This document shows, one piece after another, positions 3,461-41,201 of a DNA stretch of 64,000 bases (positions within the stretch are counted from its first letter, which is position 1; every line of letters starts with the position of its first letter). A program made the position numbers and the translations under genes. The stretch is taken from positions 124,001 through 188,000 of the forward strand of contig JADZER010000030.1 of the NCBI GenBank assembly GCA_020850415.1, read 5' to 3'. The notes beneath the pieces were generated by a model that was given only the letters and a program-made list of their open reading frames with translations, was not told the origin of the DNA and did not search any database. Source of the stretch: Phycisphaerales bacterium (GTDB lineage: Bacteria; Planctomycetota; Phycisphaerae; Phycisphaerales; UBA1924).

Positions 3461-4660
3461 ATGCCCACCGCCCGAGCCGTCCCCCTTGTCTCCGCAGTTC
3501 TCGCAGTCCTTCCCGTCGTCCCCATGTCTCCGGCTCTCGCTCAGCCCGGCGCGGTGCCGGAGTTCACCGTCCGAAAGGGCTACCGCGTCGAGGTCGCCCT
3601 CGAACACCTCAACGGCGCGCGGTTCATCCAGCTCGACGACGCCGGGCAGCTCTATGTCTCCCGCCCCAGGCAGGGCGACATCATGACCTTCGCCCCCGAG
3701 CCCGACGGGACCTACCGCCAGCTCGGCCAGTTCGTCGATGGCCGCTCGCTCGTCCACGGCATGCAGTTCTTCGACGGCTGGCTCTACTTCGCGTCAGACG
3801 GCAGGATCGAGCGGGCCCAGGACGCCGACCATAACGGCGAGGCCGACCGGGTCGAGACCGTGCTGGAAGGCCTCCCCGAGGGCGGCGGCCACTGGTGGCG
3901 CCCCGTGCTCGTCACCGACGGCCACATCTACACCTCCATCGGCGACGGGAGCAACGCCTCCGACCAGACCGACACCGAACGCCAGAAGATGTGGCGGTTC
4001 AACCGCGACGGCTCGGGCAAAGCCCTCTTCGCCAGCGGCATCCGCAACACCGAGAAGCTCATGCTGCGGCCCGGCACCGACGAGGTCTGGGGCTTCGACC
4101 ACGGCTCCGACTGGTTCGGGCGCGAGGCCGGCGACACGGACGGCAGCCAGCCCATCACCAACCTCAACCCGCCCGACGAGCTGAACCACTACGAGATGGG
4201 CAGGTTCTACGGCCACCCGTTCGTCGTCGGCATGCGTCTCCCCCGCTACGAGTACCTCGGGCGCGACGACATCAACGACCTAGCCGCCAGGACCACGCCC
4301 CCCGAGTGGCAGATGGGCGCCCACTGGGCGTGCAACGGCTGGACCTTCATCGACCCGGCGATCAACGAGGCGACCGGCGCATTCCCGGCCGACCACGCCG
4401 GCGACATTGTCGTTGCCGCCCACGGCTCGTGGAACAGCTCGGTCCGGGTCGGCTACTGCGTCGCCCGCGTCATGTTCGACAAGGACCCGATGAACGAGGG
4501 GCATCCCGTCGGGATGGTCGTGCTCGTCTCGTGCCTCGGCCCCGGCGGCGAGGTGCTCGGCCGGCCGGTCGATGTCGTCCAGCACCCCGACGGCTCGCTG
4601 CTATTCAGCGTGGACAATCCCCAGGGGCGCGTGTACCGGCTGCGCTCTACCGGGGAGTGA
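3461..4660 (+). CDS. Secreted glucose/sorbosone dehydrogenase-like beta-propeller protein
   Basis: Probable periplasmic sugar or aldose dehydrogenase of the sorbosone dehydrogenase type. The 399-aa protein has a Sec signal peptide ending near SPALAQPG, then a beta-propeller body. Repeated family features are visible: RFIQLDDAGQLYVSRP, YTSIGDGSNASD, FASGIRNTEKL, WGFDHGSDWFG, and a conserved PPDELNHYEMGRFYGHP segment. The C-terminal AAHGSWNSSVRVGYCVARV matches the family's GS.NR..P.GY.V pattern. Members usually use PQQ, but many planctomycete paralogues are uncharacterised, so the substrate is unknown. The start ATG directly follows GAGCCCCCGC, without a strong ribosome site. Confidence 0.75.
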   Translation: MPTARAVPLVSAVLAVLPVVPMSPALAQPGAVPEFTVRKGYRVEVALEHLNGARFIQLDDAGQLYVSRPRQGDIMTFAPEPDGTYRQLGQFVDGRSLVHGMQFFDGWLYFASDGRIERAQDADHNGEADRVETVLEGLPEGGGHWWRPVLVTDGHIYTSIGDGSNASDQTDTERQKMWRFNRDGSGKALFASGIRNTEKLMLRPGTDEVWGFDHGSDWFGREAGDTDGSQPITNLNPPDELNHYEMGRFYGHPFVVGMRLPRYEYLGRDDINDLAARTTPPEWQMGAHWACNGWTFIDPAINEATGAFPADHAGDIVVAAHGSWNSSVRVGYCVARVMFDKDPMNEGHPVGMVVLVSCLGPGGEVLGRPVDVVQHPDGSLLFSVDNPQGRVYRLRSTGE

Positions 4661-37416: not shown

Positions 37417-38613
37417 ATGACCAGAGCAGCCCACACCCCCTCCGAGGTCCCCGCCGCCACCGACCCCCTTCACCTGATCGATGTCGACCATGTCCGCTGC
37501 TATGTCGGCAACGCCAAGCAGGCCGCGTACTTCTACGCCCACACCTTCGGCTTTCAGATCTCCCAGCTTGCCGACCTCACCACTGGCTCGCGCGACGAGG
37601 CCGACTACCTCCTCACCCAGGGCAACATCCGCCTGATGCTCACCACGCCGCTCACCAAGGACCATCCCGCCGCCGAAGAGCTGAGCCTCTACGGCGACGG
37701 CGTCAAGGATGTCGCGTTCACCGTCCACGACGCGGTCAAGACCTACGAGCAGGCCCTCCGGAACGGCGCCGAGCCCGCCCGCGAGCCCCGCGTCATCTCC
37801 GACGCCAACGGCGCCGTCACCGTCGCCTCCATCAAGACCTACGGGCGTTGCATCCACACCTTCGTCAGCCGCACCGGGCGGTACGCCCTCCCCATGGTCA
37901 AGCAGGGCGCCGAGTTCATGCCCGTCTTCAAGCACATCGACTCGCCGGTCAACGAGCACAACCGCAAGCACCCCTGCGGCCTCAAGTATGTCGACCACCT
38001 CGTCGGCAATGTCGAGCTCGGCAAAATGGACCACTGGGTCGAGTGGTACGAGAATGTCCTGGGCTTTGCCATGTTCAAGCACTTCGACGACAAGGACATC
38101 GGCACCCAGTACTCCGCCCTCATGTCCAAGGTCATGTCCAGCGGCAACAACCTCATCAAGATGCCCATCAACGAGCCGGCCCCCGGCCTCAAGAAGAGCC
38201 AGGTCCAGGAGTTCCTCGACTGGCACGACGACACCCCCGGCGTCCAGCACCTCGCCCTCCGCACCGACGACGAGCTCGCCAGCGTCGCCGAACTCCGCCG
38301 GCGCGGCGTGGACTTCCTCAGCCTCCCCGACTCCTACTACGACATCGTCTGGGACCGCGTGAACACCATGCTCAAGAAGCACGGCCACGACGCCGTCCGC
38401 GAGGACCACGACCGGATCAAGGACCTCGGCATCCTGGTGGACGCCGACGACGAGGGGTACCTGCTCCAGCTCTTCACCAAGCCGCTGCAGGACCGGCCGA
38501 CCCTGTTCTTCGAGATCATCTGCCGGCGCGGGAGCCAGAGCTTCGGGAAGGGGAACTTCAAGGCGCTGTTTGAGGCGTTGGAGTTGGAGCAGGAGCGGCG
38601 GGGGAATCTGTAA
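37417..38613 (+). CDS. hppD: 4-hydroxyphenylpyruvate dioxygenase
   Basis: 398-aa Fe(II) dioxygenase converting 4-hydroxyphenylpyruvate to homogentisate in tyrosine breakdown. Two vicinal-oxygen-chelate domains are visible. The iron ligands lie in KYVDHLVGNV (His), PGVQHLALR (His) and LFFEIICRRG (Glu). NNLIKMPINEPA and the C-terminal FGKGNFKALFEALE...ERRGNL are family hallmarks and close the active site. No hmgA or fahA gene follows; instead an HNH gene begins three bases after the stop. It links functionally with phhA. Confidence 0.95.
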   Translation: MTRAAHTPSEVPAATDPLHLIDVDHVRCYVGNAKQAAYFYAHTFGFQISQLADLTTGSRDEADYLLTQGNIRLMLTTPLTKDHPAAEELSLYGDGVKDVAFTVHDAVKTYEQALRNGAEPAREPRVISDANGAVTVASIKTYGRCIHTFVSRTGRYALPMVKQGAEFMPVFKHIDSPVNEHNRKHPCGLKYVDHLVGNVELGKMDHWVEWYENVLGFAMFKHFDDKDIGTQYSALMSKVMSSGNNLIKMPINEPAPGLKKSQVQEFLDWHDDTPGVQHLALRTDDELASVAELRRRGVDFLSLPDSYYDIVWDRVNTMLKKHGHDAVREDHDRIKDLGILVDADDEGYLLQLFTKPLQDRPTLFFEIICRRGSQSFGKGNFKALFEALELEQERRGNL

Positions 38614-38616
38614 CAC

Positions 38617-39282
38617 ATGAGCACCGCTGAATACGACGACAATGCTGAATGTGCGTTGGTTGCCTGTGCGCGTCATTGCTGTGTGTGTCGCCGATTTCGT
38701 CCTACCGCACTTCAGGTTCATCACATCAAGGAACGGGGCGCAGGCGGAACCGACGAGTATGACAATCTGATCCCGGTCTGCCTAACCTGCCACAGCGATG
38801 TTCATACCAAGCGCCCATTCGCACGACGGTTTACCGAGAGCGAACTGCGGAAGCACCGGGATCAGGTGTACCAGATGGTCAGCGAGGGAATCCTCGTCCC
38901 ACCAAACGAATTAATGGCGGGGCCCACGCAAGCGTTCATCCTCCAGATGTCTTCCGGCTCGTCAACGCCCATCTCGAGAAACGCACTGGTACCGCTTTCT
39001 GCTCAAGCGGCCGAGGTCCTGGTCTCTATGGCGAGAGGCGATGGTCACCTCATCTTCAGTGCGCACATGGGCGGCAGGGACCTAAGGGCCGGGGTGTTCG
39101 AGGAGGAGATCCCCCACACCAACCATCGTCGAGCCAAGGAACTGGACGCCGCGATAGACGAACTTGAGAAGCACAGGTACATCGAGCGCACCACATACGA
39201 CCGGTACGCAAGGCTCTATGAACTGACTATTCTCGGCTATACGGCGGCCGACGATCTGGAAGCAGCCTCATCGTCGCAGTAA
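38617..39282 (+). CDS. HNH endonuclease domain protein
   Basis: 221 aa. The N-terminal ~75 residues are an HNH nuclease: CCVCRR and CLTCHSDVH give the two zinc Cys pairs, and LQVHHIKERGAGGTDEYDNLIPVC the beta-beta-alpha metal site (HH...N...H). The remaining ~145 residues form a helical domain (SAQAAEVLVSMARGDGHL, RRAKELDAAIDELEKHRYIE) that looks like a winged-helix or helical module. GC content and codon use are clearly lower and more mixed than in neighbours, suggesting transfer. The ATG lies 3 bp after the hppD stop, so it is likely read through from hppD. Confidence 0.85.
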   Translation: MSTAEYDDNAECALVACARHCCVCRRFRPTALQVHHIKERGAGGTDEYDNLIPVCLTCHSDVHTKRPFARRFTESELRKHRDQVYQMVSEGILVPPNELMAGPTQAFILQMSSGSSTPISRNALVPLSAQAAEVLVSMARGDGHLIFSAHMGGRDLRAGVFEEEIPHTNHRRAKELDAAIDELEKHRYIERTTYDRYARLYELTILGYTAADDLEAASSSQ

Positions 39283-39635
39283 TTGCTCGCCGTGTGCCAC
39301 TGGCGGCTCGCCCGCCAGTGCTCTCCCCACTCGTTCAACACGGGCGGGCAAGCCGCGCCGGTCCGCCCGCCGACCGGCAGGGCCGCGCCGGTCATCGGTC
39401 CGCGCGCCCCGGCCCCCGGTCCGGCCAAGAACCCCGCCCAGCCGCGCGTCTCCGCCCCGGGTTCGCTCAGCCCGCCCGCCGGTCCGGCCGATCCGGGGCC
39501 CCGGCGTGCCCGCCGCCGCCCTCACCCCCGCCCCAAAACCCACACCACCCAAGGCGCAACCCCCACCTCGCCGACCCACGCCCGCCCATCCCCTTCCTCC
39601 CCCCGCAGATGGCGCCGTGAGGATATCTTGCGGAC
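39283..39635. other. Spacer with palindromic repeat and duplicated methyltransferase 3' end
   Basis: 353 bp without a gene. It holds a TGTGCCAC-type hairpin (CACTGGCGG...CCGCCAGTG, 39298-39320), a very GC-rich unique stretch, and a 72-bp copy of the end of the downstream methyltransferase gene (39519-39590). Confidence 0.75.
39519..39590 (-). repeat. Direct repeat R1: remnant of methyltransferase gene 3' end
   Basis: Matches 40457-40528 at a constant offset of 938 bp with 6 mismatches in 72 (about 92% identity), by my base-by-base count. It includes the equivalent of the stop codon (39522-39524 against 40460-40462). On the minus strand it reads WVGEVGVAPWVVWVLGRG, the C-terminus of the methyltransferase. 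Confidence 0.9.
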
Positions 39636-40379
39636 ATGACCTCCACTGACCTCCAAACCGCCCTCACCAAGTACGCCGAAGCGTGGGACACCACTCTGAC
39701 CGAGAAGCTGACCGGAATCGCGGCGAACTGCCCCCATTGCGGGGTGTTCGCGTCGTTCGATCAACTCACCGCGGCGGGAATCGCCGCTGGAACGATTCTC
39801 GCGGCTCTACAGCCGGGCGGCGTGGCCCGCCAGTTGATTCAACTGCAATGCCCCTCCTGCAGGCGGCTCTCCATTGTGGCGTCCGCATATGGGCCACCGC
39901 AGGGCGGAAAGCGATCACTATCTCTGCAACTGCTCTGGCCTCCGACGATCCGTCCTGATCGAGCCCCCGAGACCCTGTGTGTTGGGCCGCGCAGGGACTA
40001 TGACGAAGCCCGCCAGGTACTCTCCCTTTCGCCCACTGCGGCGGCACTCCTGACGAGAAGGTGCCTGCAGCATGTGCTCAGAACGAAACTGAAGGTCGCT
40101 CCAAGCTCGTTGTTCAAGGAAATCGGGGAGGCTATTGGCCGCTCGGAGTTGTCAAGCCACACACGGACTGCCTTGGACCATGTGAGACAAATCGGCAACT
40201 TCGCCGCCCACCCAACAGTCGATCAAGCGGTCCTCGTGACTGATGTTTCAGCTGAGGAGGCGTGCTACACGCTGGAAGTGCTAGAGCGGCTGTTCGATGA
40301 CCTCTACCGCATACCGGATCAAATACAGCAAATGAACTCGCGACTCAAGCCTGGCCCCGGAACGCCCGTCAATCCGTGA
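39636..40379 (+). CDS. DUF4145 domain-containing protein with N-terminal zinc ribbon
   Basis: 247 aa. The N-terminal zinc ribbon has CPHCG and CPSCRR knuckles ~50 residues apart, followed by a beta-rich region. The C-terminal half matches DUF4145: LSPTAAALLTRRCLQHVL, LFKEIGEAIGR and LDHVRQIGNFAAHPT. DUF4145 is often found in or next to restriction and other defence genes, but its function is not settled. Codon use is lower in GC than the surroundings, like the HNH gene 350 bp upstream. It sits between two copies of a methyltransferase gene end, suggesting insertion. Confidence 0.75.
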   Translation: MTSTDLQTALTKYAEAWDTTLTEKLTGIAANCPHCGVFASFDQLTAAGIAAGTILAALQPGGVARQLIQLQCPSCRRLSIVASAYGPPQGGKRSLSLQLLWPPTIRPDRAPETLCVGPRRDYDEARQVLSLSPTAAALLTRRCLQHVLRTKLKVAPSSLFKEIGEAIGRSELSSHTRTALDHVRQIGNFAAHPTVDQAVLVTDVSAEEACYTLEVLERLFDDLYRIPDQIQQMNSRLKPGPGTPVNP

Positions 40380-40456
40380 ACCGGCTGGCGACGCTGGCAT
40401 CCCCGCTTTTGCCTCGGGCGGCTCGACCGCCGATGCGCGGAGACCGAACTCAATCC

Positions 40457-40528
40457 CCCTCACTCCCTCCCCAAAACCCACACCACCCAAGGCGCAACCC
40501 CCACCTCACTCACCCACGCCCGCCCGTC
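40457..40528 (-). repeat. Direct repeat R2: genuine methyltransferase 3' end
   Basis: Downstream partner of R1 (39519-39590). It contains the functional stop codon and last ~20 codons of the methyltransferase gene. Confidence 0.9.
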
Positions 40529-41185
40529 TCCCGCCTCGCCCAGCGGGCGGACCACCTCGACCACCCGCAGCCCCGCCCGCGCATAGGTCTCCCGGTAGCT
40601 CTCCTCGGTCCACAGCACATCCTCCACCGGGCGCCGGTCCGGCACATCCAGCATCACGATCCGCACGATGTCCCCGCTCTTGGCCGCATGGTTCTCCGGG
40701 TAGTCCTTCGTCGAGAACGACGCCCACTCGTGCATGTAGATGTCCGGCGACGACACGAGGTTCACCACCCGCCCGTGCGGCCCGAGCAGCCCGCCCAGCC
40801 CGCGCAGCAGCCCCACCTTCCGCTCCATCGTTGGCACATTGTCGAACGGGAACGCGCACATGACCAGGTCGAACCGTCGCTTCCCGAGCGCCGAGAAGTC
40901 CCCGTCCCCCACGAGCAGATACTCCCCCTCCGGGTCCCGCGCCCGCGCCCGCGCGATCATCTCCGCCGAGATGTCGATCCCCGCCGCCTCGAACCCCAAC
41001 CCCTTGAGAAACCGCGTCGACCGCCCCGACCCGCACCCAAAGTCCAGCGCCCGCGTCCCCGTCACATGCATCGCGAGGAGCGCCGGCAAGTCCCGGAACG
41101 CCAGCCAGTAGGTCCCGGGGAACTCCAGCGACGCGTACGCCTCCGCCCGCTCCCGGTCCTCGTAGGTATTGAACAGCTCACCCAT
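40460..41185 (-). CDS. Class I SAM-dependent methyltransferase
   Basis: 241-aa methyltransferase of unknown substrate. SAM-binding motif I is ALDFGCGSGRSTRFLKGLG; AAGIDISAEMIARARA and FDLVMCAFPFDNVP are motifs II and III. EDRERAEAYASLEFPGTYWLAFRDLP forms the N-terminal helical cap. ATG 41185 is chosen; the codon before it in the track is GTG. Its 3' end is duplicated upstream of the DUF4145 gene. It is 16 bp downstream of the EEP nuclease gene on the same strand, so the two may be cotranscribed. Confidence 0.85.
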   Translation of the reverse strand: MGELFNTYEDRERAEAYASLEFPGTYWLAFRDLPALLAMHVTGTRALDFGCGSGRSTRFLKGLGFEAAGIDISAEMIARARARDPEGEYLLVGDGDFSALGKRRFDLVMCAFPFDNVPTMERKVGLLRGLGGLLGPHGRVVNLVSSPDIYMHEWASFSTKDYPENHAAKSGDIVRIVMLDVPDRRPVEDVLWTEESYRETYARAGLRVVEVVRPLGEAGDGRAWVSEVGVAPWVVWVLGRE

Positions 41186-41201
41186 CACGCCAGCCTCCCG
41201 C

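Follow-up and report, generated by a model that had tools for sequence, protein, structure and literature searches.

Displaced copies of host gene ends beside acquired HEPN and toxin-antitoxin genes: probable scars of recombination between lineages

INTRODUCTION

The movement of single defense or toxin-antitoxin genes between genomes without an integrase or transposase is poorly understood. The locus described here raises the question directly, as a gene encoding a DUF4145 protein lies between two copies of the 3' end of a methyltransferase (MT) gene. By what route did such a gene arrive, and how did the gene end come to be present twice? The interest of this scar lies in its recurrence beside HEPN and toxin-antitoxin genes within the family.

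RESULTS

Layout of the locus

The window, that is, the whole 64-kb stretch of DNA that was analyzed (G000:C30:124001-188000), belongs to a draft genome of 4.43 Mb in 84 contigs that is 92.9% complete. The gene order at the locus is a 4-hydroxyphenylpyruvate dioxygenase (HPPD)-like gene (+), an HNH endonuclease-domain gene (+), a REP-like palindrome, a GC-rich spacer, the MT-end remnant, the DUF4145 gene (+), and the MT gene (-) (Table 1). The HNH gene is an accessory gene and starts 3 bp past the HPPD stop codon. HPPD orthologs (70-83%) are present in 144 of the 163 genomes of the family, and the HNH gene has homologs in two family genomes, at only 42-45%. GC3 is 0.69 in the DUF4145 gene and 0.66 in the HNH gene, compared with 0.90-0.98 in the neighbors and 0.92 in the MT gene, in agreement with the atypical composition that a first-pass annotation of this DNA had ascribed to the DUF4145 gene. 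That annotation had also seen no recombinase at the locus, and the insert indeed contains no recombinase gene: DUF4145 is its sole gene, with the HNH, HPPD, and MT genes as neighbors.

The REP-like palindrome occurs in about five copies genome-wide. Its degenerate copy on the 3' side of the DUF4145 gene stands out in an ungapped comparison and is not significant in a gapped test. The two palindromes are suggestive only of a layout in which gene, REP, and MT end are present twice; as proof of two stacked alleles the shared palindrome was rejected, because it fails the gapped test.

Table 1. Features of the locus and of comparable loci elsewhere in the genome and in relatives
Feature	Position	Strand	Remarks
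HPPD-like 4-hydroxyphenylpyruvate dioxygenase gene	37417..38613	+	Left border; Pfam Glyoxalase/HPPD
HNH endonuclease-domain gene	38617..39282	+	221 aa; PF01844 2.3e-9
REP-like palindrome	39288..39323		36 bp; exact recurrence at C37:234962; near-copies C60, C11, C59
MT 3'-end remnant (copy 1)	39519..39606	-	77/88 identity to 40457-40544; reads RGEEGDGRAWVGEVGVAPWVVWVLGRG-stop
Identical core of both MT-end copies	39531..39569		39 bp
Zinc-ribbon + DUF4145 (HEPN-superfamily) protein gene	39636..40379	+	247 aa; PF13643 41.6 bits, cut-off 23.1
Degenerate REP-like palindrome copy, 3' of DUF4145	40410..40437		22/28
Functional MT 3' end (copy 2)	40457..40544	-	Reads LGEAGDGRAWVSEVGVAPWVVWVLGRE-stop
SAM-dependent methyltransferase (MT) gene	40460..41188	-	Right border; 242 aa; PF08241
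NmrA-like gene end repeat	G000:C37:272919-275762		Last 36 codons, 109 bp, 80%, on the far side of a 500-aa lipoprotein-like gene
dinB 5' end repeat	G000:C37:220182-223117		118 bp, 96%; to its right a 2.7-kb stretch, GC 0.63
G084 (L208)	G084:C6:8223-11263		HPPD, PIN-domain toxin-like, small ORF, HPPD end, HicB antitoxin-like, HPPD-end piece, HicA toxin-like
G038 (L209, 664-1935)	G038:C66:91200-97500		HPPD, membrane DUF4145 protein, HPPD end; 136 aligned bases, 92%
G048			HPPD, FabH-like gene, HPPD end 104 bp, 86%; its stop overlaps the start of a 120-aa ORF
G090			HPPD end 84 bp, 87%; ORF directly after
G078			HPPD end 85 bp, 80%

The repeated methyltransferase gene end

The two MT-end copies are direct repeats at an offset of 938 bp, and their alignment has 77 of 88 bases equal and 11 mismatches. 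The 72-bp match with six mismatches that had been reported between 39519-39590 and 40457-40528 is reproduced within this repeat (66/72 equal, 92% identity) and extends to 88 bp. The repeat had further been said to include the MT stop codon and terminal codons; over its 88 bp it contains the stop at 40460-40462 together with some 27 terminal codons. The homology begins 3 bp past the MT stop and fades near 39603-39606, and both copies keep the reading frame and the stop. The MT C terminus is conserved in an alignment of homologs from other families and phyla, and the repeated segment is therefore a real gene end. Copy 1 alone lacks two residues that MT homologs conserve (S at -17 and L at -28), and it has thus undergone some decay after insertion. 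Supposing that a single crossover took place, the identical core is the likely crossover tract.

That C-rich DNA matched by chance or through low complexity is refuted as an explanation for the repeat. The repeat strand is C-rich (57/88); however, among control 88-mers from the 64-kb window (300 random and 156 C-rich), the best ungapped matches were 58/88 for the random set and 59/88 for the C-rich set, versus the 77/88 observed, and the same reading frame and stop occur in both copies. The possibility of a widespread low-complexity sequence, named in the first-pass annotation, was checked by a search of the whole assembly with the MT end as the query, which returned both repeat sites and one 28-bp fragment (E = 9e-4); beyond the two sites, no further copy of the repeat was found in the genome.

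The inserted DUF4145 gene

The inserted gene encodes a protein in which a Cys4 zinc ribbon is combined with a DUF4145 domain; Anantharaman et al. place this domain in the HEPN superfamily (PMC3710099). R184, G187, N188, and H192 are invariant in an alignment of 14 DUF4145 homologs, and R184, N188, and H192 are catalytic-type residues. The protein matches the PADLOC defense profile PDLC04109 for PD-T7-4 (7e-16) and a solved DUF4145 chain, 9y9c (1e-9). Its structural model, of moderate confidence (pLDDT 72.7), gave Foldseek matches to the HEPN structures 1wol and 2hsb with a probability of 0.96 and E values of 0.16-0.31, which are not significant. Judging from the family, the protein is most likely an RNase-type HEPN protein with an abortive or direct anti-phage role; the gene is foreign and probably defense related. 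It resembles the DUF4145 HEPN gene of the PD-T7-4 anti-phage type in its combination of zinc ribbon and DUF4145 domain, its conserved R/N/H residues, and its PADLOC profile match. Overlap with an integrase gene is frequent among PD-T7-4 homologs (PMC9519451), whereas the gene in the window has no such overlap and shares about 35-40% identity with its nearest homologs. Searches of plasmids and phages returned distant DUF4145 proteins only.

Distribution in relatives

Three genomes of the same genus keep the kinase-HPPD pair, and in these three neither an MT ortholog nor the DUF4145 or HNH gene was found. The MT gene is patchily distributed, with one 56% homolog in the family; elsewhere in the class, other families have homologs of 51-60%. 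Among 163 family and 397 class genomes there was no MT gene close enough for an empty-site comparison (the nearest was 60%) and no MT donor; no close MT was found in viral contigs, and none of 15 MT homolog loci carried a scar.

Repeats were also seen around some DUF4145 homologs in relatives. In G148 the DUF4145 gene (L085) is flanked by palindromic intergenic elements of 150-153 bp (1651-1799 and 3500-3651), which are 85% alike and have inverted repeats at start and end, and in G099 (L088, 5738-8416) two DUF4145 paralogs lie close together amid repeated intergenic sequences. No MT end was present among the repeats in these two genomes.

Displaced gene ends at other loci

The arrangement has independent counterparts: a second HPPD 3' end lies downstream of other genes at 5 of about 106 HPPD loci in the family, in a scan that covered mostly 3 kb downstream and partly used only the last 60 HPPD bases as the query. 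The five genomes (G084, G038, G048, G078, and G090) differ in the length and break point of the scar. The first HPPD-end piece in G084 is 57 bp long and the second is 53 bp (77%), and the array (L208, 1194-2844) looks like the product of two successive insertions. The insert in G038 contains the same domain as the insert in the window, DUF4145 (25.8 bits, cut-off 23.1), in a protein with a WP-containing TM segment, but at a different host gene. Accessory genes at intact HPPD genes in relatives start on or just past the stop codon, and the ORFs in G048 and G090 likewise start at the stop of the remnant; therefore, the remnant keeps the old neighbor and is probably the resident gene end. The 3' flank of HPPD was also considered as a defense hotspot, and no strong claim is made, since the Pfam/PADLOC tallies mix housekeeping and accessory genes.

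A scan of 464 kb of the genome that contains the window gave two further scars, of an NmrA-like 3' end and of a dinB 5' end, the dinB remnant being separated from the intact dinB gene by 2.7 kb of lower-GC DNA. No clear scar was found in 400 kb scanned of a relative, G080, and 250 kb of Escherichia coli K-12 scanned alike yielded no case, only repeats inside one gene. The 3'-end scars measure 53-143 bp at 77-92% identity. The first-pass annotation had asked whether other acquired genes are flanked by gene ends, and they are, at HPPD in five relatives and at the NmrA-like and dinB genes here. Its suggestion of an insertion at the end of a gene that regenerates that end thus stands, whereas its reading of the gene end as an attachment site has become less likely, as discussed below.

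Origin of the two copies and alternative explanations

When the differences between the copies are pooled over five pairs, 43 of 69 are synonymous and 40 of 69 fall on third positions. The synonymous count departs from a neutral expectation of 0.245 (P = 3e-11) and also from an expectation of 0.38 (P = 4e-5), a generous null that mixes one neutral and one selected copy. For the MT pair alone, where counts are small, the synonymous count is significant (P = 0.0085) and the third-position bias (6/11) is not (P = 0.12). The dinB pair has two coding differences only and no synonymous excess, being too young to tell. The HPPD remnants resemble the HPPD ends of their own hosts no more closely than those of other genera. 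The synonymous excess, and the HPPD remnants that are not closest to the host, suggest divergence of the two copies as functional genes in separate lineages before recombination joined them. A decaying local duplication would instead accumulate differences on all codon positions. A tandem duplication that was afterwards overwritten was among the first-pass proposals. In an account of this kind the MT 3' end would have been duplicated locally, the DUF4145 gene would later have come to lie between the two copies, and the outer copy would have decayed; tandem duplications are common, and copy 1 has lost two homolog-conserved residues. Against it stand the pooled synonymous excess, significant even under the generous null, the HPPD remnants that are not closest to their own host's end, and the requirement that at every one of several loci two events took place separately, so that this origin is improbable.

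Site-specific elements integrate in tRNA genes or in gene 3' ends. Integration of this kind, in which the gene end would serve as the attachment site and a recombinase acting in trans would insert a small cassette that has its own copy of that end, would fit the MT, NmrA-like, and HPPD scars, all of them 3' ends that extend to the stop codon or close to it, as well as the 39-bp identical core at MT and the frequent overlap of PD-T7-4 homologs with an integrase gene (PMC9519451). However, the insert carries no recombinase, the copies are diverged by up to about 20% and vary in length over the range given above with no constant att core or place at HPPD, and none of the 15 MT homolog loci is scarred. 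A fixed attachment site is disfavored because the scar lengths are variable, the target genes are unrelated, and the dinB scar is a 5' end, and we regard it as unlikely. The draft state of the assembly (84 contigs, 92.9% complete) could allow a chimera of two strain haplotypes, one represented by the HNH side and the other by the DUF4145 side; this is very doubtful given that the identical run is only 39 bp, that the junction between the remnant and the DUF4145 gene is unique sequence, and that the same anatomy is present in five other assemblies.

DISCUSSION

Probable homology-anchored insertion at gene ends

The 88-bp remnant is probably the scar of recombination between lineages, in which a foreign, diverged MT end together with the DUF4145 gene recombined with the resident MT end. 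What the sequences show is the repeat, its descent from a gene end, the foreign composition of the insert, the recurrence at other genes, and the mark of selection between the copies; the donor, the succession of steps, the way in which the DNA came in, and the details of the recombination chemistry are reconstructed from these. The foreign DNA that entered the cell would have included the 3' end of an MT allele that had diverged, followed directly by the DUF4145 gene, and the incoming MT end would have paired with the resident one. Joining may have occurred by a single crossover of a re-circularized molecule or, for a linear molecule, through homology that anchored one end and an illegitimate event that joined the other. 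By either path the MT gene would keep (or receive) an intact end and the DUF4145 gene would be added, while the resident MT end, still joined to the older HNH gene, would be displaced by 938 bp as a remnant. By analogy with G048 and G090, the HNH gene may be the older neighbor of MT, presumably displaced by the insertion, and the DUF4145 gene the newcomer. The genome contains a ComEC homolog, which is not diagnostic, as E. coli also has one.

These loci suggest that the ends of ordinary host genes serve as the sites of recombination through which foreign genes enter the genomes of the family. The scars record the acquisition event: they mark the border gene, show the old flank, and preserve part of a second allele. 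The contribution of homology-anchored insertion could be counted genome-wide by looking for neighboring gene ends that recur as partial copies, and the HPPD 3' ends in the family offer a ready test site. A bolder proposal, which we would not expect to hold, is that the family has an active and perhaps enzyme-assisted route for adding defense and toxin-antitoxin genes at the ends of housekeeping genes, with each arrival bringing a fresh copy of the host gene end, pushing older genes outward, and building ordered arrays with no integrase in the insert.

Comparison with known systems

The recombination chemistry is already known; in the open-access papers that were searched, neither its repeated occurrence at HPPD nor the stacking of arrays appears to have been described. 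Single-crossover (Campbell-type) insertion leaves an insert flanked by direct copies of the homology, as is the case here with 88-bp copies lying 938 bp apart. In such an insertion the two copies come from two different parents, an origin that the synonymous excess and the HPPD comparison may indicate; no MT donor was found among the 163 family and 397 class genomes. At the 3' end of lacZ in E. coli, a single crossover of re-circularized linear DNA duplicates 109-950 bp beside the insert (PMC3240628), so that a partial duplication of a gene 3' end flanks foreign DNA as it does in the window; however, the lacZ system used a laboratory plasmid with perfect homology, whereas the present case is natural, involves diverged homology, and is known from its footprint alone. 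Homology-facilitated illegitimate recombination (HFIR), reported in Streptococcus pneumoniae, Acinetobacter baylyi, and Pseudomonas stutzeri (as described in PMC3240628), resembles the linear route proposed here in that foreign DNA is anchored by homology at one end and by none at the other. HFIR usually deletes resident DNA and leaves 3-10 bp of microhomology at the junction (PMC3240628), and it is RecA dependent. In Vibrio cholerae, HFIR has been used to explain the displacement of effector 3' ends (PMC5361080). The type VI secretion system (T6SS) effector-immunity arrays of that species, with their Rhs orphan 3' ends, likewise arise when a new module is placed at a conserved anchor, and the 3' end of the old gene and the old downstream gene are displaced and kept in tandem (PMC5361080). 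The anchor in V. cholerae is an effector cluster, whereas here ordinary genes (HPPD, methyltransferase, dinB, and NmrA-like) receive HEPN, toxin-antitoxin, and other genes.
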